64,000 nt of DNA from Xiphophorus maculatus (taxonomy: Eukaryota; Chordata; Actinopteri; Cyprinodontiformes; Poeciliidae), in the NCBI RefSeq assembly GCF_002775205.1, contig NC_036456.1, positions 10,443,463-10,507,462 of the forward strand, read 5' to 3'. Of this stretch, positions 4,901-42,747 are shown one piece after another (within the stretch, counting starts at the first letter, position 1; each line of letters opens with the position of its first letter). The notes under the pieces are model-generated. The model had not been told where the DNA came from, did no database searches, and saw only the letters and a program-made list of their open reading frames with translations. Made by a program: the position numbers and the translations under genes.

Positions 4901-6409
4901 TTAGCAAAGCTCACAAACAATTTCTGTAATGAACTGGCCACTGAATATTTTTCCACAGTTGGAACAACTTGGCTGGCAAGACCTGTTAAATAAAGTTGTT
5001 AAAGAGCTGTTGTAGCCACAAGAGCATTTCCATTGCTGCTGGAAGGTGCTCTGGGTATTTTCCTTTCCCAACTTAACAAAAGGAACCAGCTGCCATTTGT
5101 TGGGTGTTGCTTCAATTATGACTATTTCCTCTCTCTGGTGCTGCCCAGTTCTGCTGAAAAAGGAGAGCCTGGAGTCTTTGACATCCCAAAACACTTCCAC
5201 CATTTCAGGTCGGGGTATGTCCATCACTTCATTCTTCTTCTCAGATCTGAGGACTGGAGACGGTATCTTAGGTCGGATCCCCATTTTCTCCTTGACAGAG
5301 GTCACTGAACTGACTGACGTACCAGGATGTGCTTGATTCTTAATACAGCTCAGGTGGTTATCTTCACAGCTTAGACCATAGACCGGTCCATACTTCGGGT
5401 CATTTGCAGACTTTTTATCACACAAACCAATCATCCAATCACCCTCACTGGGAAGACTGAGGATCCATCTCTGATAGTTGGGAACTGACTGGGTGCTTTG
5501 GATTAGAAAAATACCAGAACATTGACCCAGCCAGCTGTTGTAGAAAACTGTCCTTTTGTCTTTGGACAGGGACATGCTGAAATTGGGAGTCTGGGGTTCA
5601 AAGATCAGGTCTGAAGAAGCATTAACATCCTGGTGGCTTTCAGGATCAACCAGGGTCAACAATGACTCTAAAAAGTTGGACGCTTGGTTCACCATCTTCT
5701 CCCCGTTCTGTCTTATCTCCAGAACCAGTTTGTCCCGATGGAGGCCTGGCTCCAAGCCTTTCCTCAGATCCACAGCCTTGGCTTTCTCCACATCCTGGTT
5801 CACCTGAGAGTACATCTGCAGGAATCTGAAGGTGTCCTTCTCATTCTGGGCTGCCTGCATGCTGCTCCTGCTGGTTCTGATGGACACCATTCGAGCAGAA
5901 ACTGAACTTTGGACACTGGTCAGAGAAATGTCCCGTAGATTAGTCACAGCCTCGATGAGACGCACGCTGCTGCGAGCCAGCTTCTCTCTTTCACTCTTCT
6001 CCCACTTCTCCAGACTCATGTTGTCATCCTCAGTTTTCACCTGCAAGTCCTTCTGCTCAGCTTTCAGCTTCTCCAGGAGCTCTTTGTGGGCCGTGGAGAA
6101 GGTCTTCATGTTGTGAAGGCGGTGCTGGTCTTCAATGGCGCAGGAAACACACACACATGTTTTATCATCCAGGCAGTAGTATTCCAGGAGTTTCTCATGC
6201 TGGGGACATTTGGTGTTTCCATCTATAGCCATGGGTTCAGTCAGAGGATGAGTCTGCAGTAACACAGGTGTGGTGAGGTGGGCCTCCAGGTGCTGGACAC
6301 ACATGGAGATCTCACATTTCATGCAGGTCTTCCGTGCTGCTTTCCTGTCCTCCCCTGTACACATGTCGCACAGAATGCTGGACGAGTCCCTCTGAACGTT
6401 GTCAGACAT
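4901..6409 (-). CDS. RING-less TRIM protein: two B-boxes, coiled coil, divergent B30.2, C-terminal Cys cluster
   Basis: Single open exon, 502 aa from ATG at 6407-6409 (MSDNVQRDSSS); the frame stays open two codons further to a GTG, which is not taken as the start. Seen in order: B-box 1 (about 12-47, CDMC...CMKCEISMCVQHLEAH), B-box 2 (about 67-103, CPQH...CVCVSC...H), a charged helical coiled coil (about 105-240), a PRY-like start (FEPQTPNFSMSLSKDKRTVFY), SPRY-like pieces (DWMIGLCDKKS, YGPVYGLS, VEVFWDVKDSRLSFFS, PFVKLG), then a 45-residue tail with CSCG, CQPSCSNCG and CELC. No RING precedes the B-boxes and none was found upstream. TRIM16 also has two B-boxes and no RING, but the cysteine tail is unusual. 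TRIM proteins commonly act in ubiquitin-linked immune signalling; activity here is unknown. It could also be a finTRIM/TRIM25-like member. Confidence 0.85.
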   Translation of the reverse strand: MSDNVQRDSSSILCDMCTGEDRKAARKTCMKCEISMCVQHLEAHLTTPVLLQTHPLTEPMAIDGNTKCPQHEKLLEYYCLDDKTCVCVSCAIEDQHRLHNMKTFSTAHKELLEKLKAEQKDLQVKTEDDNMSLEKWEKSEREKLARSSVRLIEAVTNLRDISLTSVQSSVSARMVSIRTSRSSMQAAQNEKDTFRFLQMYSQVNQDVEKAKAVDLRKGLEPGLHRDKLVLEIRQNGEKMVNQASNFLESLLTLVDPESHQDVNASSDLIFEPQTPNFSMSLSKDKRTVFYNSWLGQCSGIFLIQSTQSVPNYQRWILSLPSEGDWMIGLCDKKSANDPKYGPVYGLSCEDNHLSCIKNQAHPGTSVSSVTSVKEKMGIRPKIPSPVLRSEKKNEVMDIPRPEMVEVFWDVKDSRLSFFSRTGQHQREEIVIIEATPNKWQLVPFVKLGKENTQSTFQQQWKCSCGYNSSLTTLFNRSCQPSCSNCGKIFSGQFITEIVCELC

Positions 6410-8878
6410 TTTCACAGGAAGATCTGATTCCTAGGAGTTGTTCTTGCGTTTTTCTCCTCTCTTGATTTTCAAGATCCCGAAGCAAGTGTCCTCAAATAGG
6501 TTAATGTGTCTAACTCCTCTAAGTTAAGTCATCACCTCTTTTACTTCCTGGTTAATAATCCACCCACACTGATAAGAAAAACTTTATTGCTTAACAGCAG
6601 TGCAAAAGAACAACGGTGTCATTGAATGAGAAAATTATTTACAGTTCTTATCGATGTGGAATAGTCAACAAAATACTGTACATTTAACGTACATTTAGTT
6701 CAAATTAAAGCACTGTATATGTTTTTTTTATTTTATTTTTTACCAAAACCATTTTCAAAAGAATATAATATTAACATTCTGGAGAGCTATTCTTGCAAAG
6801 CTATTATTCATCTTCATATTTTTTCACATGTACAGCTACAAGCCTCATTGTGTCTGACTGGGATTTTATATAACAGTCCAACACAATGTAACCAGAACCT
6901 TCTTCCTACAGGTTTCTGTGGCCCGGCTTGTCGCAAACTGCAGATAGGACTTCTTATGGCTTTCTTTCAACAATGACTTTTCTCTTACCACTCTTCCATG
7001 AAAGACGTGGTTGTAGAGCAGGGGTGTCAAACTCCAGTCGTCAAGGGCCGGTGTCCTGCAAATTTTAGATGTGCCTCTGCTGCACCACACCTGAATAGAA
7101 TAATTAGGTCATTAAGGCTCTGGAGAACTGATCTACACAAGGAGGAGGTAATTAAGCCATTTCATTCCAGTGTTTTGTGCCTGTGGCACATCTGAAAACT
7201 GCAGGACAGCGGCCCTCGAGGACTGGAGTTTGGCACTCGTTTTGTAGAACTAAAGTATCTAACTTCAGGAGGAAATATTTGTATTTTATTTTTTTAGATA
7301 TCAGAGTATCTTTTCATTTGCAAAATGTTTGATGTTGTGTCCATCTGAGCTGTTACATAAAATAAAGTAAAAAGTACATCATAAAGTCACAAAATGGGGG
7401 GGAAAACATGAGGGGTTTGAATGTTTTTCCTGTAGATTGAAGAGTTTAATCAATTCAAACTTAATTTTTAGAAGACCAACTTCTACAGTGTTAAAGTCAG
7501 TACTTACTGTATATTTATAATGAAATTGTGACATTAACTGTTTGCTATTGCAGAGTCCTGACCGTAAGAATTTTACCTCCCTTGATTTTAAAAAATGATT
7601 CTTTTAAGCGAAAATCACAATGTGAGCAGCACTAGATCACTTGACTTTGCGTCTGGTGAGAAGACATCCCAGTTGCTGTTGATCGTGTGAATCTCTAAGG
7701 TGGTTTAAAAGATTAGCAGGAGCTAAAGGGCATATTTTCTCACTTTGGTTTGACCCGGTTGAAGGAAGTAGAAAATCCAGCCTAAAACAAATAGGTAAGG
7801 CCAACTTTTTGTGTTCTCACGGGTGGCTCTATAAAGGTGAGCAGGTAATAATGTGAGACTCAAATCTTAGCTGGAGAGCCGTTACTGGCTAAAGCTAACG
7901 AGGCTTCGGCTAGCTAAAATGATATTTGAAATACGCCCGCGCTCAAGCTAACAGGCTAACCAATTAGCTAAAAATATGCGATATTGTAAGTAGTTATGAA
8001 TAATTAACACGATGTTGGTTCAGTTAACTTTGTTTTTAGGATAAACACAGCGGTCAAGAACAACAAAATTAATTATTGAAGCAAACTACTATTCCATTTC
8101 TTCTCTCTTTCTTCGCCATTGTGCTTATAATCCCAACGTATTTTGGTGGGTAGATATTAAACCCTTCTGCTTTTCGTCCTCAGATATACATATCAATATA
8201 CAGGTTTTCTTGTAGTCTGGGAGTCTCAAATCTGATTTCGAAATTTTTCAGGCTTCCTTGTGTATGGAAATAGCATGTTATTTGTAATCGGCCATTCGTA
8301 CTTCATCGATCTGTCTGTTCACCCATAAACCTGTCAAACCGTCCACTCATACATACATATATATAATCATACACTCATAAATATATATATTTATCCATTG
8401 ATCACCTAGCTGTCCATCCATCTGCTTATTAATTTATGTTCCAGCTTCCATAAATAACTCAATCCATCCATTCATCCTTCCATAGTCAAACATACTATAA
8501 GTACTAAATAAAATGTCTGGACCACTTGAGTTTCTTAACTTTCAACAACTTAACTTTTCAGAACTCAAAGTCAAAATATGTCTATAAATTTATTCTTTTA
8601 TTTTGACTTGTAGTACAGAAGAGTGTCAAAGAACACAAAAGTGAGCAAAAGCATTCAAAAAGATACTGAAACATCTCCATTGCTAAAGGTCATTACGCAG
8701 ACTAGTCTGTGAACTGTGCAAAGGTTGGTCTGTCTCAAATAATTTGATCAATTCGGACAACTAGAGTCAGATTGATTTTGCCACTGATTCAGAAAATAGT
8801 CAACTTAAATTACTGTAGTTAACCTGCTGTATGTTTCTAACCTCTCTGTCCGTCTACTTTGCATAGAAGTTGACTACG
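6410..8878. other. Intergenic between divergent TRIM and homez genes
   Basis: Holds a hAT-type MITE (7019-7241) and low-complexity TA/CATA sequence near 8340-8480. A possible non-coding first exon of homez ends at 7794 before gtaagg, and the likely acceptor tttgcatag lies at about 8858-8866. Promoters for both genes must lie here but no clear core element stands out. Confidence 0.45.
7019..7241. mobile_element. hAT-type MITE with 8-bp target duplication
   Basis: Starts caggggtgtcaaactccagt and ends with ggccctcgaggactggagtt followed by tggcactcg, imperfect inverted ends of a widespread fish MITE (recognised from memory). It is flanked by ttgtagag (7011-7018) and ttgtagaa (7242-7249), an 8-bp duplication with one mismatch, as hAT elements leave. 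Confidence 0.85.
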
Positions 8879-10267
8879 ATGAGGCAACTCGCTGACAGAA
8901 CGAACATCAAACCCATACAGACCCCCAGTTCTCTGGAAGGCAGCCATTCGGCGTTGGGTATCACAGTGCCTCAGTGGAGCGCCCGCATATGTCTCCCCCT
9001 GCTCTCTGAGGATAAAAGGGTGTTGTGGGTTCATGCAAATGAGGTTAACGTGCAGACGGATAAAGTGGCGGAACTCGAAAATGCCTTTAGCAGGTCCCCC
9101 TATCTGACACGCAAACAGACTAATGCTTTAGCCCAGCGCTGCTCCCTGCATCCAGACCAGGTGAAGGTTTGGTTTATAGCGCAGAGGCTCCGCTACGGCA
9201 TTAGCTGGGACTACAAAGACATCAGGGAAATTTGGAACAAGTTGAATTCCAATCGCAAAGATAAGGAAGGAAATGAGGAGTTCCAAGACAGGGTCAAGAA
9301 CGACCAAGTAAAGAGCAAGAAGATGTCTTTGATGGAACGAAAAGTGAATTGGAATATGGAGCAGGAGAGACCAATGGAAAAAGAAACGGGTAGAAGAGTG
9401 ATAGAGGACGAAGCCGCCACTCCAGATAAGCGGAGAACAATTGGGGTCGTGTCGAACAGGAGAAGGAAAAGAAAGAAACGAGACGTCAAGTGGATCACCG
9501 ATCAAGCAGAAACACTAGGGGCGAAAATGGATACATCTGAGAATGAGGAGCAAACATCTAGCACATGGGAAGGAGCATATGTCTCCAAGAAAAAAAGAAG
9601 AGTACACACAAAACTGATCTCCAGCCCAGTTAAAAACGACTACGAGAATCTTCTTGCCGAGGCTGAAATCCCATTTGTTGACTTTTCTTCCATCGTTCTA
9701 GAGCCTCAAGCCCAAACCTCTATCGCCATTCCCATAACAGAGAGCCAGGCAGACTTGCAGGGCAGAAGGATGACTTCGCTGGAGAGCAGCTTGGAGGAGG
9801 ACACTGACACACTGGCTTGTCTGGAGGAAGCTCTGTCTTCTGAACCAGCAAAGGAAAACAATGTCGTCTCCGAAGTGGACGAACTAAAGGAGCTCGTTAA
9901 GGCTGAAAACAACTTTCTTACTGCGAGCAGTCCGACTGCTGGGACCAGTCAGGAGGAAGTTCTCTTGGCAGAAGGGGCAATGCTGCGTCCCCGGAGCAGA
10001 CTGAAGACTCAGTCTCAGCTGCTGATGCTAAGGAGGGCCTTCCTGGAGTTCCAGTATCCCGACGCTGAGCAGTACAGCATGCTGACCAGGCTGGTCGGCA
10101 TACAGCGCCACCATCTGGTGCAGTGGTTCGGTGACCGGCGTTACTCGATGAAAAAATCAAAACCTCGCTGGATGACGGAGGAGCAGTACAAGGAGATACT
10201 GGCCAACATCAGGTACCGGCAATACAAAAACATCCTGCTAAAAGGACTGCTGAGAAAAACTGAATGA
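8879..10267 (+). CDS. homez: Homeobox and leucine-zipper protein Homez
   Basis: One coding exon, 462 aa from ATG 8879 (MRQLADRTNIKPIQ). The frame is open two or three codons upstream without an ATG, and an acceptor (tttgcatag) ends at about 8866, so a 5' non-coding exon is likely. Seen: atypical homeodomain 1 (residues about 65-115, helix 3 QVKVWFIAQRLRYGISW), a lysine/arginine-rich middle with RRRKRKKR (probable nuclear signal), an acidic stretch, and homeodomain 2 (about 370-430, helix 3 HHLVQWFGDRRYSMKK) close to the stop. The helix-3 motifs match human HOMEZ (VKTWFMAQRLR, IIQWFGDTRYA). The human protein (about 550 aa) continues into a third homeodomain and an acidic tail that are absent here. 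A nuclear DNA-binding role is inferred from the family. Confidence 0.9.
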   Translation: MRQLADRTNIKPIQTPSSLEGSHSALGITVPQWSARICLPLLSEDKRVLWVHANEVNVQTDKVAELENAFSRSPYLTRKQTNALAQRCSLHPDQVKVWFIAQRLRYGISWDYKDIREIWNKLNSNRKDKEGNEEFQDRVKNDQVKSKKMSLMERKVNWNMEQERPMEKETGRRVIEDEAATPDKRRTIGVVSNRRRKRKKRDVKWITDQAETLGAKMDTSENEEQTSSTWEGAYVSKKKRRVHTKLISSPVKNDYENLLAEAEIPFVDFSSIVLEPQAQTSIAIPITESQADLQGRRMTSLESSLEEDTDTLACLEEALSSEPAKENNVVSEVDELKELVKAENNFLTASSPTAGTSQEEVLLAEGAMLRPRSRLKTQSQLLMLRRAFLEFQYPDAEQYSMLTRLVGIQRHHLVQWFGDRRYSMKKSKPRWMTEEQYKEILANIRYRQYKNILLKGLLRKTE

Positions 10268-11617
10268 TGGCGCGGCCTGGATTATTGCAGGCTGGGAAGG
10301 AAAGTGCAAATAAGCCTCTTCTGACACATGGACAGTTTGTCCTGTTGGGTTTTTATTAAACGACTTGAGAAAAAGATTTTCATCAGGTCCTTTAAATCTT
10401 TGTTTTGTTCTTATACTTTCAGTTTTTGTGACCAAGTTTGTTCGCGTTGAAATATTGCAGCTGAGGTGCAACTTTGTTAGTGACCTTGTTTGAACTGTAC
10501 AAATATTTTGGTTTTTTTTATTATACTTATACTATTATAATTTAAGTAAAAGTCGCTTTGAATAAAAACCCCGAAATAGTGATTGTTTTTTTCCAACTCA
10601 AAATTATTTATGCATTCCCTTCTGAACACGGCAGAGCTAAACAAGTGTAGCAGAAATGTACGTATATTTCATTAAAAGACACATAACCTTCATGTTTCTT
10701 AATCCCTGATGTAAATCCAACTACATTTTTCCTGTTTTAGGTCAGTTAGGATAACAAAAAGACGTTCATATTATCTAAATGCCAGAATAAGAACAGAGTG
10801 AAAAATTATTTAGGGATTTGTTAAGATTTTAATTACATTAAATTAAAGATCTCATTCCAAATGTAAACATGCCCTCTTGGTTTACTGAAATAACATTTTG
10901 ACTAAAATGAATTAAAGATTTGATCAGTTACTTGCATATAATTGCTACGCATATTTTTGATTCATTTATGTGAATGTTAACATTTTTTATTTGGTAAACT
11001 GACTTCAAGCATCACATTTCTAAAAAATATATTTGACAGATTGCTGGAATTGTGGCACTTTTGGCCATATATAACAAACATTTACAAAGAAAATCAACAC
11101 ATAAATAGGAAATTTCAAGAATATTACAAAAAATATATTACACAAAATAATTTCCAAAAAAAATCAAAAATAATACAGCATTTATTTTCTTACTAAGCTA
11201 CATAGTGCTCCTCTAACTGTTGCTTTTGTTCCCTCCAACCTGTTTTTCATTTTTAGGCTTATGAAATACTGTCATGCCACAAATCACTGTAAATGATGTA
11301 ATCAACATTCAGGCCTCAAAAGATCCCTGAGATCAAACTCGAAGGTCTTGATAAGTTTTTTTGGGTCGCTGCTTGGTCACACGTCTGATTGTGATAAGAC
11401 CACGTTTCTTATAGTGACGTGGAAAGCAACACCTTCGAGATATTCTAAAAGAGTGAATACTCACTCATTAAAAATACAAAATTATGCATCCCTTGATATT
11501 GTGTGTTGTTTCTGATTGCCTTAAGGAGGAAATCATATTATATTTTTAGTACTGTTACCCAGTTAAATGTCTAATTGTAGGAGTAAAGTCAAAACATTTT
11601 CATTTTGGGGCTGGGTT
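10268..11617. other. 3' UTRs of convergent homez and cideb
   Basis: No reading frame of note. AATAAA at 10561-10566 (+) is a candidate homez poly(A) signal, and AATAAA on the minus strand at 11181-11186 is a candidate for cideb. The rest is AT-rich. Confidence 0.5.
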
Positions 11618-13615
11618 TTAATGCCAGGTGGCTGCGTACTCGGCCCTCTGCGGTTGCCAGAGCTCAGTGCCTTCGATGACGCGGCGGATCATGGATGCAG
11701 AGGTGATAAGCAGGTGCCCAGCGGTCTGAAGGAGGGTGGAGGCGAAGCGCAGCACTTCTCTGAAAACACAATCAACGTTTTACACTAATCAGCTTTAAGA
11801 TTGCTCACTAAGTACATGTAAGAATTGTAAAAGCGTGAGAAATTCTAACCCCAGATGTACCTTTTTGGCGTCAACAAAAATCTAATTTGAATGTCCCTAA
11901 ATCTAGAAAACAAGCTCAATTTTGAAACTAATAATTCTCAGAAAAGTGTTGTGTATCAAAACAAAACAAAATATCCATGCATTTTTCAAGCATTTAATAT
12001 GTTAGAAACATAATGATGAGCTTTTTTGTTAAACAGAAAAGGTGAAAAGTCTATTGCTCGTATGGAAAATGTCATAATTACTCTTAATGGTTCAACATCC
12101 GGGTTTAATCGGCTAATGTTGTTAAAAATAATACAAATATTATGTCTTGGCTTGGATTGATCTTCGTAACCTCTTGAGAGCTACTGAGTACTATTTTATG
12201 ATCTAAAAAAAAAAAAGCACTACCAACACCAAGAAAGGTATTTTATGAGTTTGGAAAACTAAATAATTCGACTGTAATTTCTTTAAATAAATTATCCTAA
12301 CACCCTTTATGGGTTTGGAAAGATTTACAGGTGAGGAGGTGCCAGTTCATAGCATCCGTGACCCACTTACCTGAGGACCTTCTTGGGCCCCAGACACTGA
12401 AAGTCGGCGCTCACAGAGTACAGGCCTTGGAACGTGGCCTTCACACTCAGCGAGCCAAACACATCCTTCGGGTTTATCTTGTAAAGGTCAAAGGTGACTC
12501 GTGCTATGTCTCTGCCGGTGCGAGGCTTGTCGTGGTTTCTTAGCACAACTGCACCCTGTGGAGACAGAAACGATGGATCAAACCACAAAGTGATGTTGCC
12601 GATGGAGGAAATGTTCAAGAGGGGGAAAAAAAATCTAGCATATAAAGAGACACTAGGAGCCTCTAGAATGGCGTCGGACTTACTGCTTGCGGTTTCCATG
12701 TCTGTCCTGGTTCTAGGACCATGAGCACGGTGTTGTCCGGTAAGGTCATGAGGAACTCATCAGAGTCCACCTCTGTACCGTCCTCCTCACAAACCAGGTA
12801 CACAGATGCTGCAGAAATGGCCAGCAACAAAGCCTGGCACACCTAACAGACGGAATTATTACTCTCAGTTAGGAAGAACCTCAGCTTAGGCGTCACCAAA
12901 AAATCCTCAAAATATAAACTGTGAATACCAACTGGGATGCGCAATTGTTGCGGGTAAGCCAGTTCAGGGAAACTACATTCAAATCCACTGAAATATTTTA
13001 AAAACTGGCTCACAGCTGGCGCTGAGAGCGAGTAGACGTTGTGTGTTCAGCGTGTTACTCTAGTTTAAATGTAGACGTAATATATATTTGCATAAATATA
13101 TTGTAAGAGCATATGTCCTAACCTTTTCGCAAAACTGTATGTCATAGTTGCAACAAATAATTCATTTTAGATTCATTTAAATCTAAGGCCTTTCTGTAAC
13201 TCTTAATTTCATCATAATTTATGCTAGGCAACTGATGTTGGTCTCACCCTCTCTTTCAGCTCCTCCAGGGTTCCTGCAGTGACCCCTTTCTTGGTCTCCC
13301 TTCTGTTACAACAGATTCTGAAAGGTCGCTGGGGCGGGGACCAGACCCGCTTTGTCATAGACCTGACAAAAAAAATCAGAGAGGAAAGCAAAGAAATGTT
13401 AATGTTTTTGTTGTTTTTTTACCCACGGTTCTGACATTTTGACTTTATATAGCAAAAAAGCAAAGATCTTTTTTTAGTCACACGTAATGTCTGACTCTGA
13501 TTTCCCAGTAAGTCAGACTAATACCTTAATCCTAACCCTTATAGGGCATCAACCAATAAGAAGCAAGTCAAAGCAGAGTTTTAACTTACTTGAAGAATGA
13601 CGACGTTGTATCCAT
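11618..13615 (-). CDS. cideb: Cell death-inducing DFFA-like effector b
   Basis: Five coding exons, 5' to 3': 13615-13590, 13362-13248, 12842-12684, 12555-12371, 11759-11618 (stop 11620-11618). Phases agree throughout and give 208 aa; human CIDEB is about 219. The start is MDTTSSFFK, with the Lys codon split. The CIDE-N domain (about 20-100) reads RPFRICCNRRETKKGVTAGT, then VYLVCEEDGTEVDSDEF and PDNTVLMVLEPGQTWKP. The CIDE-C domain (about 115-205) reads ARVTFDLYKINPKDVFGSL, SVKATFQGLYSVSADFQCLG and REVLRFASTLLQTAGHLL. Family role: CIDE proteins sit on lipid droplets and ER; CIDEB promotes lipid loading of VLDL and droplet fusion in liver. The DIARVTFDLYKI stretch and the synteny favour cideb over cidea or cidec. 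Confidence 0.92.
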
Positions 13616-15175
13616 TCTCCTCACTTTCCTCCTCTCTCGTCTTGCTTGTCGGGTGTTTTGGTGTGACAGAATGTCTCTGTGTGACCCATGAGCTGGACTT
13701 TGCCTCAGACCTGTCGATAATGCAAGAGCAGAAGAGAGAAGGGCAAAGTTCATGCTGGCTGTGACTAAGTCAAGCAGATTATAATACCGCTGATAACTGA
13801 TGTGGGAGGGCAAAGCTAATCAACTCTTACGATTTTTTGTTTCAATGAACATTTCATTGAATAATCTCTTTAACGTGGACAAACAGACTTCGGTTTTAGT
13901 TTGTTTTTCATCAAATTCAGCTGCCATGTAGTTTGCATTTGTTAACACGTCATATTTCAAAGTAATCTGATAAAAGCCTGCTTTTGCTTACACCTACATC
14001 AACGCCTAGTCGCCTACATATATTCTGTAATGTGACAGATGATATTTTGACTTAGGCAAATCACTTATGCACTGTTTGCTACGTCAAGAAATCAGCACAT
14101 TATAGAGATTTTACGTGTAAAAGAAAGACTTATGTTGGTGTCCAACAATTTTGCAGTGTGGCCTTTGGGTTACTTGTTCTGCATATTTTAGGTGTTTTCA
14201 AAATTTATTCATTCAAAACTATCAAAACATGTACGGCAAGCAAAAGTGAGACTGGCAGTAATCTTTTATTTAATATATTTTAATGTTTTAATTTTTATTA
14301 TAGCTGTCTGCATTGTGTCTAGCCTACTTATGAAATGTTTATGATTCACGTTGAGTACAGCCTTAGAAACACCTATCAATCAGCCCCAAGGTAGAAAACT
14401 GTGAAAAGAAACATCTAAATCTCAACACATTTGTACCTTTATTTCCTGCTAATGTATGCCCAATTATTCATAATGATCTAGTTGAATTGCCTCGTAATAC
14501 TTTTATTTATTCCTTCTTTTACCTTCCAAACAAAGCAAACATCTACAGGTTAGTGAATAATAATAAAGAATAGACCCATTATGTCTTCTTCTTTTTTTTT
14601 ATTCTTGAAATGTATTGGCAGTAGCAACAAAAAAAAAAGTTAGGTGAACATACAGCCACCAACCGGTAAACTTGTTACGTCTGTGGGCTGGTGTGAGTTA
14701 TCAAGCTGGTCTGGCGGCGGTGTTACTACGTCACATCCTAAAAGTTGTTTTAGGTGTGCTCATTTACTAAATATTAGTTCCCACCCGAGCGGAGTTTGAA
14801 ATTCAGCCCATGTTTCGCATAGAGACCCAGGAAGCACCGCCCGGTCGGCACATTCGATGAGATTATTCAAACTGATACCGACAACTACGTGAAGGCGGGA
14901 GGCAGAGAAGCGGAACTTTTAACAGAAACTTGTTCAGTTCGGCTGGTAACTGATTAACAACAAATAGCGCGGTTGTTGTTTCACTATAGGTGCTTTAACT
15001 CCAAGTGAGACGGTTAAATTTAGCTCAGTTGTGTTTGCTGACTGATTTCGCTAACCTTCGTTATAAGCTCTGCGTCAGTTTTCCTCAGTAACTTGACACT
15101 GCTAAGCTAACTTTTATTAACGTCAGATATATATATATATATATATATATATTTTAGCTAAACGGATTCTCTGGG
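13616..15175. other. Divergent intergenic region cideb/tinf2
   Basis: 1.56 kb between two start codons, AT-rich with no reading frame of note. The part nearest tinf2 (about 14760-15125) is richer in GC and CpG (cccgagcgg, gcaccgcccggtcgg) and probably holds the tinf2 promoter and 5' UTR. Confidence 0.45.
15127..15152. repeat. (AT)n microsatellite just upstream of tinf2
   Basis: Thirteen AT units ending 23 bp before the tinf2 ATG, inside the probable 5' UTR. Confidence 0.95.
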
Positions 15176-18100
15176 ATGGCTACAAAAAAACCGAAAGAAA
15201 ATGGTAAGTGGAAAACTGAACATTTAGACTTGCTAAATGTTTATTACTCGCTAACGTTGATGAGCACTGTTGAAGTTTGTCAAAGTTAATGTTTTTGATA
15301 GTTTTGATAGACTGACTATCATACACTCTACTGCAACTAATTGTTCTGTAAAAACCTCAGGAGTTTGTTGGAAGGTATCAGTGTCATGGAAACCATGCAG
15401 AACAGCAGACATGCCAGAGATAAAGTTATGCGGACGTTTAAAGCAGATGGCATATTAGGTGCTCGAGTTTTACTAGCATACTTCTTCACACCTGAATCAA
15501 ATCACTGGCTCATTAACAGGTTGACCCATTTCAAGTGTTGGAGAAGAGAGGTATGTGTGTGTGTGCATTTCTTCAGTCTCAAGAAAAACCTGGCTCGACA
15601 GAGTCGAATACAAATGAGTGGCACGCTTTTAAGAGGCAGAGGTTGAAAGAGGAGTGGCAAAAGCAAATGTTGTGGCTGAGCAGTCCTTTTTAAAAAGTGC
15701 AAGGAGGGTTGAATTTGTTAGGTAGTGTACATTATAAGGCCACTGTGGGTTTACAGTTTTTATGCTGTCAGGCTTTAGACAACCTGCTTTAGTTCGATTA
15801 TTTGTATTTAACTCTTCTTGCCTCTACAGATCCCAGCATTCCCTTTGCTGCTCTCCAGCTGTTGGCCCCTCCCGTCCGCCTGGTGTCGGCGGCGCTCTGG
15901 AAGGTGCTAAAGCAGAGGGATGTGATGCAGTACGGGGTTGTGGAGGAGTTTGTGTCTTCGGCCTGCGATACCGTTCCTGGCCTGCTTACCCTGCGACACC
16001 AGGGCAAGCTGGTGCTGGGCCTGAGAGCACGGGTGACTATTTACTGAAGGATAAGTGGTAACTATAATTCTTCAGTTAAACACATTTCTTACTAATCCGT
16101 TTTCCTTCTTTCTTTTCAGTTAATATTAGAGTTGTGTCTCAAACAGCCAGACGTTGACGTGATTGCACCACATCTGGAGAGGATCCGTGTTCCTGCTCCT
16201 CTTTCGTCCGGATCAGCTGTGGTAAAATGGAGATGGAGTTCAAATCTACACCAAATTTATCTATTTTTTTTCTGCTAAGGGTTCAATTTCACCCAAAATT
16301 CGATTTCAATTTCACTTATGATTGAAACAAAGGTTAACTACAACCAAGTGTAATCCAGCTTGGATTGCATATTTGGTTTGAAATGGGCATTATTTATTGA
16401 ATTGAGTGGATTGAGTTGTGCAGAGTAATAGAAGCAGATAAGTTGAACTGTTTTTGTAAAGGAGGGAAATAAAACGAGGCCAGCCTATTCTACCTATAAA
16501 AAAGCAGCTTAAGGGCAGAATGTACTTCAGCTACTCATTCAGAAAAGCACATATTCAGACTTAGTACATTTTAATAAAAAAAATTTATGTTAATGATGAA
16601 AGTAAGTCATTTTTAGAAACTGCAAGCATATTTTTGCTCATTTTACACTTCAACACTTGTCTTCAACACTTTTTTTGTTTGCTTGTAGAGAATTCTAATA
16701 AAAAAAAAAACAATAGTTTTAAAGTCCACCCTTCTAGTTTTTCAGGTTTTGTAGTTGTTTCTACTTCAATCGGTTGTCTTTTATGTAAAACATGCACTTT
16801 GTGTTCCTTTGTCTTCCAGAAGAAGGATGTGAAAATTCAGAAAACGGTGGAAAGTTTCCATGTTTTTGTTCAAACGCTGCTAACAAATGAAGCAGAGAGA
16901 GAACACTTCTTTAAAGTGAGTATCCATCCACCAGCGCCCCACTGAGTGTAAACACCTGAAACGGTGAGCAGGTGATTATCGTTGTTTTTCTCTAACAGGA
17001 ACAGTTTCCCACTGATTATGGCCCAAAGTTTGACCAGGAGCTGGAGAAGCTGTTGTGGGAATTTCTGATTCGACTAGACCAGTTGCTCCCGGTTCCCAAC
17101 CTAGCCCAGGTAGGCATCGACACACACATGTGACCTCTGGTGTTGCCGTGTGTTGTTGTGGAGTTAAAAATGTCAGTAAGACGATGTGATTACAGACGGT
17201 GTCATGGCTGTGTGACGCCCCTCCTGTCCTGGAGGAGTGTGCACAAGCAGCAACTCAGCCACAGCTTCTCAAGATCTTACTTCAACATCAGGCTTGTCTG
17301 GGTCACCTGGAGTCAGCAGGTAGGATCGGGAACATTTGGGTTTATTGTTTTTCCCCAACTGGAGTAGAATGGAGGAGAGAGCATTTTATTTTTCCAAACA
17401 AATTAACCGAATTGGTTCTTGTACTGTTAAATGCATATCTTCACACTTTTAAAGTCAGTCGTCATTCACTGCCAGACTTGATGCAAAAGAAGAAAAAAGT
17501 CTTATGAATTTAGTTTTTAAAAAACTAAGACAATTGAATGTCCCATTCAATAAAAACACAGAACAATGGTAAAATGGTTATTTCGATATTTTGGCTATTT
17601 TGTTTTTCCAACTTTCTGCTGGAGAGTTGTTTTTGTAACCAGTGACACGCCTGCGCCATGTAGAAGATTATGCAAAAATAAAGACAAGTTTTACATTGAT
17701 GTCTCTGTTGAGAAATAATTATTGCTCTACACTGTAAGGTCAGCTTAATATTGTAGAAAGCTTTATAGGTGAATTTTTAAAACTGAACTGATTTCTGTAA
17801 ATTGACATGAATTTGATGTCTCACTGTGTTCCTACAGCCTGGAAATGTATGAAATTTGTTCTGTGTAAGATTTGAATATTTGTGTAAAGAAGACAATACA
17901 AGACACATGTCTTATCACTGGTCTTTTTAACCATCCATCTCTATCCATCTATCTTTCCATCCACAGTAATAGTTTATAATCTGGTTCCAAGAGCTCATGA
18001 GATCTTATTATTCAAATGTGGGGAATTCTGACTGGACAAAATACGTAGAAACTCTAAATCCTAACAAGACTTTCTCTGTGTTGTTTCTGTTCGCAGCGTC

Positions 18101-21100
18101 TCTACCTCCAAACATGGGCGACTCCATCCTGGCTTCTCTCTCTCTGCCTCCATCTGGAAAAGTCCCATCGGATCAGTCGGCCGCTGAGCGGACAAACTGC
18201 TCAAGGCCGGGAGCGGCCACGCCGTTGGTCACACCCGTAATCGGACTCATTTCCAACGGCGAAAAAGCCTCGCAAGGTGGTGAGAAATCCAACTCAAAAG
18301 ACGCAAGAGGTGATCAACGGGATCCAAATGCGAAATTCACCTTGGTCAAACAGAAACCCAAACCTGTTGGCGTGAGTTCCTTAAATGAAAGCAGAGGAAG
18401 GAAACGCAAGCAACCAGACACAGCTGAAAGTGACCCTGAGGAGGAAGTCATATCTGGAGAAAAAAGCATCAACAGGAACCAGAGAACCAAAGAAAAATCT
18501 CAAACTTTACAAAACAACAGCTACAATAGAGAACTCCTAAATCGACATATAAGTAAGCTGGGCATCAAAAAGCTGCACCTGCCTGAAGATCCGTCCATTT
18601 GCTCTGTGTTTGCTTCTTGCCTGAGCAGCAATCCCAGAGTTGTTATCAAAAAACTGTCGGTTTCTTCTGCTAGCGTTAGCTTGTCTGGAGGAGAAGGGAA
18701 GTCCTTCTCCAAGGAGCAGCAGCAGCAGAAGTCCTCAACATGGAAACAAACAAGTGTCTGTCAAACGCCTGAAAGTCCTGGCCTGGATGACAAAGAGTAA
18801 GGATGACAACAAGCTGCTAGTCGGCCTGCAGGAATAAAACTTTAATATCTGTTAAAATTACGTTTTCTATTCTGGGTTTTTTTCAACGCTGTTGATAATC
18901 TGTTATTGATCCATGTTGCTATCATTTGAATGTGATAATCACACTTTAACATAGCGATGCACCAAGTAATCGATTGGGTTCCTACTCTGTCCCAACGTCT
19001 GCAAATTTAAAACTTTACTTTTTCAGTTTTCCAAATCTGGATAAGTATGGAGAAAGGAAAACTGAGGATGGAAAACTATGCTAGTTTCCAAACTTCATTC
19101 AATACTCTGTAATCTGGAAGCTTACAGAAAAAGAGATCAATAAAATTACAAAAGTTAAAAAGTAAATTCTATAGTAGCTACTAAAATTGCATGTTTTATC
19201 TTTGAGGTACAACAAGCAGCACAAAGGTCAAAAGAAAATGTTAGTATTTAGTGTAAAATAATCCATTTAAGTTTGAAAGGTCACCATATATTTTGGAATA
19301 ATGCTGATTTGAATTAATCCAGATGCCAAAAACACAGAAATAACTCAAATACTCTGTGAAATCTGAAGCCAACTTTGGCATTATGGGAATGTAAGATGAA
19401 TGGAACATATGAAGCACACGGGTCTATTTTAAATGTTTTCTACTCCAGGGTGCAGAAACATATAAATAATCAACACTAAAACACAAAGGATCAAAACTGA
19501 TTGATTAGGAACCAAAAACAATCATTAAATTTTTTTATTTATGTATTTTTTTTTAAAAGTCCATTAGTTTCTGAGCTATAAACAATTGTAAAGGAAAATG
19601 TTTTAATTCCTTTTAGTTTGGTTGCATTTATTCACACCTCCATCTCAAAAGGTTTTGATTTGACCGTTTCTGCACATTTCTAGTGACGCAAGTAAAGCTC
19701 CGTAGCTTTGGGGCCGTTTCTCAGGCAGTCTCAGCTTTATTTTTCTAGACACATTATTAATTATTAGAAACGTTTACAGCAGTTCAGCGGGACAATGTTC
19801 ATGGTTCTGTTGTCTGAGATGTACAGCTCTGCCGAAAGAACACTTTACATCCAAACATTTGTGAGGAGTTGCTGATGTTTACAGTCCTGGACGTTGTAAC
19901 GTTTAAGAGTGTAAATTCTAATGAAATTAATATGAAGAAAATAAAAATGTTTTTCTTACTAGTTTCTTTGAGCTCATCTTTCTGTTAAATGACATCAATT
20001 AGATGAGTTTAAGTGAGCTATTTTGATCTGAATAAAAAAGAAATAAAACTGGATCAGTTTTATTTATTTATTTTGACCAAACCTTTGTTTGTCTGACAGA
20101 AATCAGCCGGTTTTATCCAGTGGGAGCAGCTCTTCCTCCCAGCAGAGGACTCCTGCAGGTGATTTAACTAATTAAATAACTTCATTATATGGGTGAAAAA
20201 ATAACCAATTCCAGTAAGTTTGGACCATCCATTGCACTATGTTATGTTCAACTCTGTATGTTTGTGTGTAGAAATCGTTTCTCTGTCAGGAGGCGACTAC
20301 GTAGCAGATTCTGAAGATGAGGCGTCAAAGAACTTCAAAGGGAGGGTACGTATGCACCAAATAATAAAAATTAATGCGGAGAAAGTTCCTACTGTCTGAG
20401 AGTAAAGAAGCTGATTCATATATTTCCCAAATCTGGATAAGTACGATAAAATAAAATGAATAGAAAATATTTGTATTTTCAATTCCATATTGAAATATGT
20501 GTGAAGATGGTTTAAGTCTGACAAGTTTTTATATAAAGATGCCATAATGTAAAAAATTTTTTTCTTCCACCATCCACCTCAAAATTTTAGTTTATAATTT
20601 TAGACATTTTTCTTGTGCCTTTTAGCTCACAGAGACAGATATACTGTACATGTGCGCTGCAACGGCTATACTGGTTTCTCAGGTAGACGTTTCCTTGGTA
20701 ACTGAAAGGAGGATTTATGAGGGGATAATTTGAGATGTTCAGTCTATTTTCACAATTTTCAGTCTACCAATCCCTGAATTCATCTTTTCACCCGTTTCAT
20801 TGTTTCCATTTATCCGACAGTCTTTGAATGCACCTGCAACATGTGTTCAACACTTCCATTTATTCTTTCATTCATCCAGCAGTCTGTGCATCTTTCCATC
20901 CACTTTCATCTGATTTTATCCATCTGTTAATTTCCCAAATCTCTCTCTGTCCATCAAGCCGAGTTTATTTATCCATTTATCGTTCTGCTCTAGTAATTAA
21001 TCATCTGTGCTGATTTATCTGTCCATGAAATGGTTCTTTATTTATAACCTGATCACCACTAAGCTTATTGATAACCTGAACCACAAACATAAAGGTTTTC

Positions 21101-21461
21101 ACGAACATCTGGAAACTGCATTGTGAAATGATAAAAATGTGAAGGAACACTTTTTTTTTTACGCCGAGGACTATTTTCAAAATCAAAATCCTTCATGAAA
21201 ATATTAAATCTTTGAATGTTCCTCTGTGTTTTTTTCTGCTATTTTATCAAATTGTCAATGTGCCAGTTCAAACACATAATTTCAAACTTTGAACAAAGTC
21301 CTCACTTCAGCGTGTATCCTGTGCTCTGCCTCCCCCAGCTGTTCATGAAGCGTTACTACAAGACCAAACGCGGCACATACGTTCCCACCCTGAGGGAGTT
21401 CTGGAAACCCGGGACGGCCCGACCAGACCTGCTGTCCGCTGGCAGCAAACAGAGGCGATAA
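15176..21461 (+). CDS. tinf2: TERF1-interacting nuclear factor 2 (TIN2), long form
   Basis: Ten coding exons with agreeing phases: 15176-15203, 15830-16032, 16120-16221, 16820-16915, 16999-17109, 17196-17319, 18097-18796, 20100-20158, 20272-20345, 21339-21461; 539 aa. TIN2 bridges TRF1, TRF2 and TPP1 in the telomere-capping shelterin complex. Seen: an N-terminal helical TIN2 domain (about 10-235; SAALWKVLKQRDVMQYGVVE, VPGLLTLRHQGKLVLGLRAR, KFDQELEKLLWEFLIRLDQL), a low-complexity Ser/Lys-rich exon 7 with RGRKRKQ, and a C-terminal part with YVADSEDEAS and RYYKTKRGTYVPTLREFWKP. The last part resembles the human TIN2L-specific tail (DSDEEE, YQKTKFDTLIPTLCEYLPP). No exact FxLxP TRF1-binding motif is visible; the nearest is FTLVK in exon 7. 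It runs convergent with dhrs4. Confidence 0.9.
18097..18838 (+). other. tinf2: Alternative 3' end of tinf2 (TIN2S-like)
   Basis: If exon 7 is not spliced at its donor (GA then GTAAGG after 18796), the reading continues GAG TAA: one residue then a stop at 18798-18800. AATAAA follows at 18833-18838. The product would be 455 aa, ending DDKE. In human, short TIN2S and long TIN2L likewise differ by whether the 3' exons are joined. Here the donor dinucleotide precedes and feeds the stop codon. Confidence 0.6.
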
Positions 21462-22032
21462 GAGGCACATTCACTGTTTTACAGCCTGGAAACTAAAACG
21501 TTACATAATGTGTGGTGTTTGACTTTTATATTACCTTCTGCTAAATAAATAGAACCGTCTGAAATGCAGCTGTCACTGCAGTTTAGACAGATACCAGATA
21601 ATAAAAGCTCATTTAGTGTGTTTATTTGACGTTTTCTGCATGTTAAATGAGATCAGAATGCAAAAAGTAGAAAAATATTGAAAGCATGCCTTAAACTAGA
21701 AAGATATGAATTTAAAATTTTAGAAAAACTGCATGTAATTATTAATCTTGATTTAACTTATTCAAATGACATAAGTTACAATTGCAGAATGCAGTGGCTC
21801 AAAAAGTGGGTATGCACTGTTTGCAACCCATAGGGGGCGCTGCACTAGAGAGGGCGCCAAAACTGGACATTATTTTTCTAGTAGGAATATTCTGTATTTA
21901 ACAGTTGTTTGTGAATGTATACAATGATCAATAACAGGAACGTTACTGATTAGGGGCCCTCCGCTCCTTCACCTCCCCTCCCACACAGGCGGAAAAAGAA
22001 AAATCATAAATGGGTCTGAAGTCAGAGAGGGT
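21462..22032. other. Overlapping 3' ends of tinf2 and dhrs4
   Basis: tinf2 signals AATAAA at 21544-21549 and 21600-21605 (+). The dhrs4 candidate AATAAA is at 21621-21626 (-). The transcripts probably overlap tail to tail by tens of bases. No coding sequence. Confidence 0.55.
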
Positions 22033-25000
22033 TCAGAGTCGACAGCTCATCCCTCCCGTCACCGTGACGGTCTCTCCTGTGATGTAGGAAGCGTCATCAG
22101 AGCACAGAAAGGCGATCGTCCCTCCGATCTCTTCAGGTTCTCCAATCCTAAAGCCGCAGATAAATAAATACAATTATTCCACACATTCAGCAGCTCAAGT
22201 ACAAGTTAAACTAAACGTCACCTCTTAATGCTGAGCTGCCTTTTCAACTCATCCATACTGTCTTCGTTTTCCCACAACTGGAACAAGAAAAAAAATAAAC
22301 TCAAATCAAAATCACAATCCCATACGGTAATCAGGAACTCTACAGGCCTGAAGATCCATGAAGTGTTGGCGTCCTTACTACAGAACTGAAGCGGGTTTTG
22401 ATGATTCCAGGGGCCACGCAGTTCACCCTGATGTTATTGTGAGCCAGCTCAGGAGCCAGCGCCCTGGTTAGACCCAGCAGGGCCGTCTTACTCACACAGT
22501 AGGGGCCCAGGCCCTGCAGAGAGACACAGCAGATCCGTTTTACTGGACCCAGAAGACACGGGGGTCTCAAGAGTGACTAGGAAAGCTAGACTGCTTGACT
22601 GTAATACATGTCAACCATCTCATTTACATATATATTTTTGTTCAGTCTTAAATTTAATTCATGGTGGCATTAAAAAGGTCTTCAAAAGTCTTAAATTTGA
22701 CTTTCTGAAACCAGCGCCTGCCCTGTATTAAGTGAAGCTAGATGGAAAAAAATCACCAAGATGCCATCTGAATATTTAACACCAATGTTTATGAATATGT
22801 ATCACTTCACCAGCATTGGTTGGTATCCACCCACTGAAGACACAAATATTATGTTTCCGCCTCTGAAAGAGAAATTCAGAACCATTGAAAACACAACTAA
22901 GAATTTCACTGTTGAAATTCTTCTTTTCCTCCCAGTGCCATCCTCACCCTCTCTTCTCCATATGAGGCACCACCATCTTCGTCAGGAGGAAGGCAGCTTT
23001 TATATTTACAGACAGAATCTAAAAAGAAACAAGAATGATACAAATATATGTAATTTTTCTTTTTACCTTTTTGGTAGAAAAAAGTGGGAAACAGAAGTTT
23101 TTGTTTATCTTGAAATTTGATATGTTGCAAAAGCATCCATACCACTCAACCTTTTTGACATCGGGCCACATTAGAAACACAAACGTTAAAGGCTTTCACT
23201 GGCATTTATGTTAAAGAGAACCTTCCTCCCAACAACCTTAAACATGCAGCCAGGGACTAAAAGGATAAATTCATGTGTTAGAGTGACCCAGTCAAAGTTC
23301 AGACCAAATACAAACTGAGAATCTGTGGCAAAACTTTAAAATCGCTGATCACAGAAGTACTCCGTCCAATCTGACTGAATTTGAGCTAATTTGCCTGGAG
23401 GAATAGACAAATATTTTATCATGTAATAATCCAAAGCGGCACAAACAGCAGCTGTAGATTCAGCAGAAGTTGATTCCACAATACATGGACTTGGGGTCAC
23501 TTTGGGGTCAGAAATTTGTTGGTAAAGAATTTGAAAAGCACAAATTACCTTGAATTTCACAAATATGTACTGCTTTGCATTGGTCTAAACTATCATTCCC
23601 TATAAAATACAGTATAGTTGGTTAATATAATGGGACAGAATGTGAACAGACCCACTATTTCAGTTAAAAAACGATTCCTGAAGCTTCGTAGTCGTGGCGT
23701 TTACCTTGTCCCACACCTCCTCTGTGGAGTCCAAGATGTTTCCAACGAACGGGTTGACCGCTGCGTTGGACACCAGGATGTCAATGCCCCCATATTGTTC
23801 CATAGTCTAAGTGCAACACAAAGTGAGGAGTTAAGCTGCAGCGTAGCATACAATGCAAGGAGACACAGGCCTCAAATAATATGAAACACATTTAAAACCT
23901 TGGTGCAGTTCACACAAAAAGGAAACTCGAAAAGTCAATCTGCAGCTTTACACGAGTTTGGAAACTATTAAAGATTCATTTTAAAGGGATGAAACGATTA
24001 TTTTGCAGACAGACTGTCCAACAGCACGACACATTAGACGCAGGCAGGAAACAAAGGACGCTCAAAACAGGAGCTAAGGAATTGGCTGTTTATGAGTCTA
24101 CCATATGTACAATCATTTATAAAGGCTTGGTTTCCATGGAGGCACCTCACACAGCAGTCAGGTATCCTCCAAGTCAGGCATAGCTGCATGCTTGTGGTTT
24201 TCCAGGATGCACCTCAAAACTTATCTCTGCAGTGGAAAAGTTTGCGGGCTGTCGAGATTAAGATTGAAGTACTTAGGAAGATTGTTGGTCTCCAGGAATA
24301 ATAAGAGCCTCAAATATGACGTGAAGTGAACTTGGGACAGCTGGAGAGCACTTATAACAACAACAAACTTCAGCGCAAACCATCTGAATGTCTTCAGACA
24401 GAGAAAATGTTCCCACCCCCAACACCCTCAGACAGACTGAGGCCCCTTGGAAACAACTTCACTAGAGTCGTCCAAATCGGACTCTGAAAGAAAGCTGAAG
24501 CTCGGTAAGGAGGAATGGGTTTCAAATCCCTCCTGAGCAGAACCTTCTACAGGTCTGTTGCTCCGCGGCAACAGGAAATGTCTGAGGTTTGCTTGGAAAA
24601 ATAATGCAGTTATTACCCAAGAGTTCAGCCGGATTTTCCATTGACTGGGGGTAAACGTAAATAAAGAAGCTCCCTTAATACCTACGATTCTGTTTCTTTT
24701 AGCTAGTTTTCGCAGAAAGCCTGCATATTTCCACATATTTCACCACTGAAGATGCTAGAGCTCACCAGTTGGACCAGCTTCTCCCGGTCCTCTCCTTTGC
24801 CTACATTACATGTGGTTCCAATTACTCGGATGCTCTGGCTCTTCAGCAAAGCCACAGCCTTGTCCACGTTGGCCTGCCGCCGGCTGCTGACGACCACATG
24901 GGCCCCTCTCTTTCCCAGAGCCTGAGCTGCAGCCAGGCCGATTCTGAGGCGAAAGAAGAAAAAACGGAGCCTTATCATGAATGAACAAAGCCTTGCAAAA

Positions 25001-26112
25001 CTTTCCAGACCCGTCTGATCTCAACAGCAACCGCAAACGTCAATGTGGTTTGCTGGGATTTTATGTATTATGCCAACAAAAAGTGGCATACAAGTAAAAT
25101 GTACAAAAACGTACAATACGGATTTGTATTCAATCACACAATGTCAAAAAAAAACAACTATGTAATTTAACCTAAGTGTAAACACCACACTGCACCCGAT
25201 TCCCTTTGGGAAGCATGGTGGAGGCAGCATCATGCAAGCTGGTTTAAGGCTATACAAGGTGGCAAACATGGTTTCTGCAAGTTTCAGTAACTTAAATTTA
25301 GTAAAGACCAAAGCAAATTCTCCAAAAATAACTTCAATAAATTGAAAATATTGTTAAATATGCACTTTGTCCATGAGCTGGTTGTAAATAATGATGTTTT
25401 GATGTAATTTTCCCAAAGGACCAACAATAAGCAGAAGAATAAATAAACTAATATACTAATTTAAGATCTAAATAAAGGTCATTTTAGAGGAGCAGGGTTG
25501 AGATCGCTCTGGAGACTTTGTAGGAGAATTTAGGCTCATCTATGACATTTTTAAAGCCTAGAATTGAAACGGTTACATGCTCAGCAAAGCATATTCACGT
25601 GCTAAAACGTCCTAGTCAAAGTCCAGAGCTAAATTAAATGGAGAATGTGTGGCAAGACTTGAAAACTAACACTTACAGGTTGGTCTATCACAACAAAGCA
25701 AAATCCCAATAAAGTGCATTTTAGATTTAATTGTGGAAACATGTCAAAAAAGTATAAGGGGTAGAAAAACATTTGCAAGGCACTGGAAGTCAACATGTAT
25801 CACTTGAAACATCATCACTGAAACATTTATTTAAATAAAACCATATTGGCAACACATTGGAACTGAGACACTGCGTTTTCTTTTCTCTTTTTGTTTTCGA
25901 AACCCGTTCTCTTAGAAAAGCAGACCACAGTCACGTCCTCGGTTTCTGTTGAAGCTGTTCCAGACTAAAGAGCTCTACAAACAGCTCAGTCACTCTCACC
26001 CATCTGTGGAGGCTGTCACAATAGCTACTTTCCCGTCCAGACTGCTATGAGACATGCTTCTCTGGGCAGAAACCGGGTTGGTCCTCAGAAACCTGGATAA
26101 ACCCCGAAACAT
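22033..26112 (-). CDS. dhrs4: Dehydrogenase/reductase SDR family member 4; one catalytic exon not found
   Basis: Exons 5' to 3': 26112-26000, 24943-24766, 23806-23705, 23018-22948, [missing], 22513-22379, 22277-22222, 22147-22033. DHRS4 is an NADPH-dependent carbonyl/retinal reductase of peroxisomes and mitochondria. Seen: [20 protein letters not shown] leader, [14 protein letters not shown] cofactor loop, [23 protein letters not shown] (NAA motif), [25 protein letters not shown] (catalytic Tyr/Lys), [29 protein letters not shown], and C-terminal CRL, which fits peroxisomal PTS1. Exon 22948 ends in phase 2 and exon 22513 starts in phase 0, so direct joining shifts frame into a stop. The missing piece should be 3n+1 nt and hold the VSS catalytic-serine motif. 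The copy may be defective, misassembled there, or spliced in a way not seen. Confidence 0.85.
22610..22735. repeat. Probable dispersed repeat in the dhrs4 intron lacking the expected exon
   Basis: The stretch cttaaatttaattcatggtg, gcattaaaaaggtctt, gtcttaaatttgactttctg has the internal repetition and wording of a dispersed fish repeat (recalled, not searched). It sits in the 434-bp interval where the catalytic-serine exon should be. Confidence 0.4.
23160..23570 (+). mobile_element. Tc1/mariner-like remnant in dhrs4 intron
   Basis: Contains cccagtcaaagttcagacc, gagaatctgtggcaaaactt and cacagaagtactccgtccaa, matching the region of fish Tc1-like transposases that reads SPDLNPIENLWQDLK (from memory). 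Frames are broken; non-functional. Confidence 0.65.
25040..25790 (+). mobile_element. Second Tc1/mariner-like remnant in dhrs4 intron 1
   Basis: Contains gggaagcatggtggaggcag, catcatgcaagctgg, agtcaaagtccagagctaa and gagaatgtgtggcaagactt in the order expected along the same transposase, with gaps and stops. Same family and orientation as 23160-23570. Confidence 0.65.
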
Positions 26113-42609: not shown

Positions 42610-42747
42610 CTCGGGACTGCCGAGCCCTGCCACTTTATTCTTGTAGCGTTCAGGACAAGCCGAACGACTCCGGAAGCTGCCGAAGTGTGACGCCGAGCAG
42701 CAGCCGTAGCGACGTTCGTCGGAGTTCAGACGAGCGGAGGGAGCAAA
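42610..42747 (+). promoter_or_regulatory. acin1: acin1 promoter/5' UTR, GC-rich
   Basis: A short CpG-rich stretch between the efs poly(A) signals and the acin1 ATG. It starts with the small palindrome ggctcgggactgccgagcc and includes gcaaaATGGCGGAC at the start codon. There is no TATA box. The transcription start is not determined. Confidence 0.5.

Follow-up and report, generated by a model that had tools for sequence, protein, structure and literature searches.

The tinf2 gene of Xiphophorus maculatus

The stretch of DNA analysed here (the window) comprises 64,000 nucleotides (nt) of contig NC_036456.1 of Xiphophorus maculatus, positions 10,443,463 to 10,507,462, and carries on its + strand tinf2, the gene for the telomere protein TIN2. 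The subject of this analysis is the splice donor of the seventh tinf2 intron, which reads as an in-frame stop codon when left unspliced, and the short and long proteins between which it may decide. A frame-consistent splice model places the coding region at 15176..21461, with ten coding exons and a long form of 539 amino acids. Judged from its predicted protein, the gene is the counterpart of human TINF2. Residues 33-180 match the Pfam family TINF2_N, an N-terminal TRFH-like domain, with an E value of 9.3e-55 over profile positions 1-149 of 149, and the TIN2 chain 5xyf_A (E 2.3e-16) is the sole solved structure in the PDB that matches the predicted protein at E values up to 1. These two matches bear out the original prediction, which had already named the gene tinf2.

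The part of the gene that matters here begins with exon 7 (18097..18796, 700 nt), which ends in phase 2 with GAC AAA GA; like the other tinf2 features given below, it lies on the + strand. The intron that follows, intron 7, is 1303 nt long, the longest of the nine tinf2 introns and the only one in phase 2. In the splice model, exon 8 (20100..20158) begins a long-form extension and exon 9 (20272..20345) encodes GGDYVADSEDE and a CK2-type site whose serine, S488, aligns with S396 of human TIN2. The last intron (20346..21338, phase 0) falls at the same residue position as the last human intron, and exon 10 (21339..21461) encodes a conserved YYKTKRGTYVPTLREFWKP block and the stop codon of the long form. 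Two AATAAA hexamers downstream, at 21544 and 21600 (21544..21605), are candidate distal polyadenylation signals of this form.

A splice donor that doubles as a stop codon

The donor of intron 7, GTAAGG (18797..18802), is the second weakest of the nine tinf2 donors when scored with a provisional frequency matrix. If the intron is left unspliced, exon 7 and intron 7 read GAG TAA, and donor nucleotides 2-4 (18798..18800) become an in-frame TAA that would end a putative short form of 455 amino acids. The glutamate E455 is found in both forms, encoded by GAG on read-through and by GA|A after splicing, so that the short form matches the first 455 residues of the long form exactly. When intron 7 is spliced, exons 20100-20158, 20272-20345 and 21339-21461 contribute a further 84 residues (539 versus 455 amino acids).

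Most of this had been anticipated. The earlier reading of the exon end as GAC AAA GA followed by GTAAGG, with GAG TAA when unspliced, agrees with the splice model, which also returns the three additional exons and 84 residues then claimed. The single read-through residue ahead of the stop likewise stands, with the refinement that this residue, E455, is a glutamate after splicing too. An AATAAA had been placed 33 nt past the stop, and its first base indeed lies 33 nt beyond the last stop base (18833-18838).

The human TIN2S and TIN2L isoforms

Human TIN2L (451 amino acids) is reported to comprise the complete TIN2S sequence (354 residues) followed by a further 97 residues (PMC5974431), and the human isoforms are put down to introns retained between exons 6 and 9 (PMC11941968). 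Table 2 of a 2026 paper lists a retained TINF2 intron at chr14:24240330-24240418, about 89 nt long and in reading frame 3. Counted from the upstream exon-intron junction, the first stop stands at position 2, and the authors regard it as fitting a known shorter isoform (PMC13300575). In the rows of this table that give a distance, position and distance add up to the intron length within 2 (8/8), and the positions are therefore nucleotides. Further, all nine rows (9/9) fit a reading in which frame k means that intron nucleotide 1 stands at codon position k, so that frame 3 of the human TINF2 intron corresponds to phase 2. We infer that the retained human intron is the one after residue 354, since TIN2S could hardly match the start of TIN2L to its last residue, gaining none past a GT donor, in any other way; the human letters around residue 354 are provisional.

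The same geometry is found in X. maculatus, where the stop lies at the donor of the intron that precedes the extension and the long form would begin with the entire short form. The original prediction had claimed that human TINF2 offers this same choice of short and long forms, and the claim holds, also at the codon level (PMC5974431, PMC13300575). The two genes are homologous and share a phase-2 intron with a stop at nucleotides 2-4 and an exact-prefix short form, but the routes to the short form would differ. The human intron is about 89 nt long and is retained, whereas the fish intron measures 1303 nt and has an AATAAA close by. Further, the human short form is shown by long reads (PMC6791651), while that of X. 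maculatus is putative and read from the sequence.

Homology of the long-form extension

The human TIN2 letters used in all alignments reported here are provisional. They agree with published numbers for the length (354 + 97), the CK2 site (396-399) and the start of the HP1 motif (283), and also with the published R282, D391, D395, 397-400, Q298 and K302. Against these letters, the 84-residue extension aligns over 42 ungapped columns with 17 identities (17/42). The alignment score of 84 compares with a maximum of 43 among 2000 shuffles, none of which reaches it (0/2000). The extension contains a block of the TIN2L type, with a CK2 site and a YxKTK..PTL stretch, and its serine S488 is aligned with S396, the reported residue of the human CK2 site (PMC5974431).

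The position of the last intron points the same way. In human TINF2 this intron is reported to follow residue 407 in phase 0, the unique residues of TIN2M beginning at 408 (PMC6791651). Here it follows residue 499 (R499), also in phase 0, the twelfth residue counting from the CK2 serine S488. The distance from the CK2 serine to the intron is thus twelve residues in both proteins (human S396-407, here S488-R499), and in the alignment the junctions of the two species share one column. An extension carrying a CK2-type site and agreement of the last intron in both residue and phase are further likenesses to human TINF2. From sequence comparison, the extension exons and the last intron are judged to be homologous to the TIN2L-specific human exons.

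No Pfam family matches the extension together with the preceding glutamate (85 amino acids) at E values up to 1. In 2018, a BLAST search for the last three TIN2L exons was reported to return mammalian matches only (PMC5974431). Relative to that paper the present sequence extends the range of these exons beyond mammals; later or earlier reports of fish TIN2 isoforms may exist. Myler 2021 reportedly deals with metazoan shelterin, and Kaminker 2009 is said to concern a long TIN2 form. The parts covered of a paper on zebrafish tinf2 deal with its expression and hold nothing on tinf2 isoforms (PMC5425123), and a literature search for a zebrafish TIN2 C-terminal CK2 isoform found nothing. Searching a viral DNA collection with the extension gave 10 pattern matches, and searching a prokaryote genome collection with the whole protein gave 45; none of either set was confirmed, and neither collection, being viral and prokaryote DNA respectively, provides evidence of absence in fish.

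Two observations concern the junctions of the extension. Retention of the last intron would append 17 residues before a stop (20346-20400), and human TIN2M is reported to add 13 at the same place (PMC6791651); the AATAAA that lies 17 nt into this intron, intron 9, precedes the stop of the retained form. Separately, the splice from 18790-18796 to 20100-20103 creates a KE|N tripeptide at residues 454-456, and the provisional human sequence likewise reads KEN (353-355) across the same junction. Each protein holds a further KEN, at residue 7 here and at residue 341 in human. It is conceivable that the long form alone gains a KEN-box degron at the splice junction; a literature search on TIN2, KEN box and telomere found nothing.

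A proposed competition between splicing and proximal polyadenylation

We consider it marginally probable that intron 7 corresponds to the point at which human TIN2S and TIN2L diverge, and that splicing would there compete with proximal polyadenylation, which would yield the predicted short form. The competitors would be splicing of this longest intron from its weak donor and 3' end formation at the AATAAA at 18833. Where U1 and the spliceosome prevail, the three extension exons would be added with their CK2 site, giving a TIN2L-like protein of 539 amino acids. Where cleavage and polyadenylation prevail, the donor would stay in the RNA and be read as GAG TAA, giving a TIN2S-like protein of 455 amino acids. 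Past its stop codon, the short RNA would have a 3' untranslated region of some 50-70 nt; with no junction left downstream, it should escape nonsense-mediated decay. Its protein would retain the N-terminal TRFH-like domain and the part encoded by exon 7 and lose the CK2 site, like human TIN2S. Such an RNA would end in a composite terminal exon, as in IgM, whereas in human a short intron is retained.

Given a long intron, a weak donor and a nearby AATAAA, proximal polyadenylation is the better reading if a short form is made at all. Composite terminal exons, of which IgM is the classic case, have been described from introns that are large and have weak donors (PMC3708835, PMC5928244). Intron 7 combines large size with a weak donor, as compared within tinf2 only and with the provisional donor matrix, and a candidate signal with a downstream element lies past the donor that would go unused. 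In the secreted/membrane switch of the IgM heavy chain, a donor is likewise set against a polyadenylation site just downstream, and the short form loses the last exons (PMC5928244, PMC3708835). The two systems are, however, not homologous; in tinf2 the stop codon is part of the donor, and the polyadenylation site is only predicted to function. Intron 3 of CSTF3, the gene for CstF-77, is also a long intron with a weak donor and an internal polyadenylation signal, but its short RNA is reported to have no apparent protein product, with features conserved across vertebrates (PMC3708835).

The candidate proximal signal is the AATAAA at 18833..18838. The putative short-form 3' untranslated region up to this hexamer (18801..18832) has a GC content of 59%, as against 32% for intron 7 as a whole, a value reached by 0.9% of 32-nt segments across the intron. 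Past the hexamer, a T-rich/GT stretch read from the sequence (18863..18883) is a candidate downstream element with a score of 9.5. An AATAAA so near a donor is mildly unusual. When intron 7 is shuffled 5000 times by dinucleotides, 4.8% of the shuffled sequences have one as near; among 4252 overlapping 42-nt stretches of the tinf2 introns 9.4% contain the hexamer, and along the whole + strand of the window 4.2% do. Near the GTRAG sites of both strands it occurs in five of 209 cases, the intron 7 donor counted. The hexamer together with a T/G-rich downstream element at least as strong is rarer: 0.48% of intron 7 shuffles have both, and on the + strand the pair follows 39 of 3647 GT sites, among them the donor of intron 7. 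All percentages for the proximal site are uncorrected, the site having been chosen by eye in a gene with nine introns. Ranked by a crude downstream score, with ties ordered by T content, the AATAAA at 18833 stands 21st of the 196 in the window on both strands, and of the two candidate distal sites one stands 26th and the other 169th. The notion that this AATAAA is unique in lying near a donor was dropped, intron 9 having one at +17.

Alternative explanations

Several observations weigh against proximal polyadenylation. One alternative is that intron 7 is an ordinary constitutive intron. In that case the stop is automatic, the AATAAA is a chance word in an AT-rich intron and only the long form is made, as in the laboratory mouse; we regard this account as credible while giving it somewhat less than an even chance. 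A stop at a donor requires just a phase-2 intron that begins with GTAA, GTGA or GTAG, and eight of the nine tinf2 donors have TAA, TGA or TAG at intron positions 2-4. The overlap of donor and stop is accordingly an expected by-product of a phase-2 intron and not a design. The view that it is remarkable in itself was abandoned, as the same eight donors would stop if in phase 2. An AATAAA alone within the donor's reach is expected by chance in 5-9% of cases. Intron 7 contains five such hexamers, and two later ones, at 20031 and 20042, score 10.0 downstream versus 9.5 at 18833 and rank 11th and 14th of the 196. In intron 9, the element that follows the AATAAA at +17 is weaker than that at 18833; introns 4 and 5 are also GC-rich at their start, so the feature is not unique to intron 7; and no TGTA upstream element occurs within 80 nt ahead of 18833.

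The mouse provides a precedent for a constitutive intron. Its nine-exon structure is kept, and only the long form is reported. One TIN2L-like isoform with the same exon structure was described in two mouse strains (PMC6791651) and in mouse fibroblasts and stem cells (PMC11941968), and Mus spretus is reported to make both forms (PMC11941968). The laboratory mouse thus keeps the structure and makes the long form only, which means that the arrangement can persist without use and that structure is no proof of use. Against a purely constitutive intron stands the joint rarity of signal and downstream element in the shuffles. Further, in human cells TIN2S RNA is reported to be about twice as frequent as TIN2L RNA (PMC6791651).

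Occasional retention of intron 7 in a distally ended RNA, leading to nonsense-mediated decay or nuclear hold and thus lowering TIN2 without a short protein, is very unlikely: the two introns downstream would, if later splicing went on, give a junction much more than 55 nt beyond the stop, and retention does yield human TIN2S (PMC11941968), but at 1303 nt intron 7 is far longer than the retained human intron of about 89 nt (PMC13300575), and its five AATAAA make full retention to the distal end seem unlikely.

Age of the arrangement

The original prediction had further suggested that the isoform choice is old in vertebrates. The part of this claim that concerns structure stands, as the extension exons, the position of the last intron and the geometry of donor and stop are common to the fish and human genes. 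The part that concerns use of the switch by fish does not follow from these features, and the choice itself is only possibly old. A stronger version, which we consider rather unlikely, holds that the common ancestor of fish and mammals already had a TIN2S/TIN2L switch. Both the donor/stop and the split glutamate would then have been kept while the route to the short form changed from intronic polyadenylation (long intron, X. maculatus) to retention of an intron (about 89 nt in human), and the short form would have been lost in some lineages such as the laboratory mouse.

The presence of the extension, CK2 site, last-intron position and donor/stop codon in so distant a vertebrate suggests that the arrangement predates mammals. 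Fish models would then become usable for testing the short and long arrangement of TIN2. The comparison also offers one stop codon with two possible routes to exposing it, proximal polyadenylation in the fish and intron retention in human.

Other motifs of the predicted protein

In human TIN2, the HP1-binding motif of the disease cluster is reported at residues 283-287 (PMC5974431). A candidate counterpart here is PRVVI (residues 401-405, exon 7), which fits the pattern P-x-V-x-I, as do two other stretches of the protein; global alignment does not place PRVVI against human 283-287. The strict TRF1-binding pattern F/Y-x-L-x-P has no match in the 539 residues, and a diverged motif is possible. 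The TRF1-binding region of human TIN2 (258-267) is reported to be almost entirely identical across mammals (PMC5974431).

Surroundings of tinf2

An (AT)13 run at 15127-15152 stops 23 nt ahead of the tinf2 start codon and is probably polymorphic; beyond this run, no tandem repeat was found in 14000-22000. No Rfam family reaches its gathering score anywhere in the window. Pfam was run on nine stretches outside tinf2, six of which matched and three of which did not. The matches point to a B-box gene (4904-6430, - strand), a homeodomain gene (8867-10264), a short-chain dehydrogenase gene in two pieces (22343-22576 and 24706-25020, - strand), an SH3 gene (30944-32284) and a SAP-domain gene (42691-42963). 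The stretch 12370-12756, a piece of a cideb-like gene (11600-13800), gave no Pfam match. By likeness, the neighbours may be homez, cideb, dhrs4, efs and acin1. Relatives of these five genes presumably lie near TINF2 on human chromosome 14 (14q11-q12), which looks like conserved synteny.

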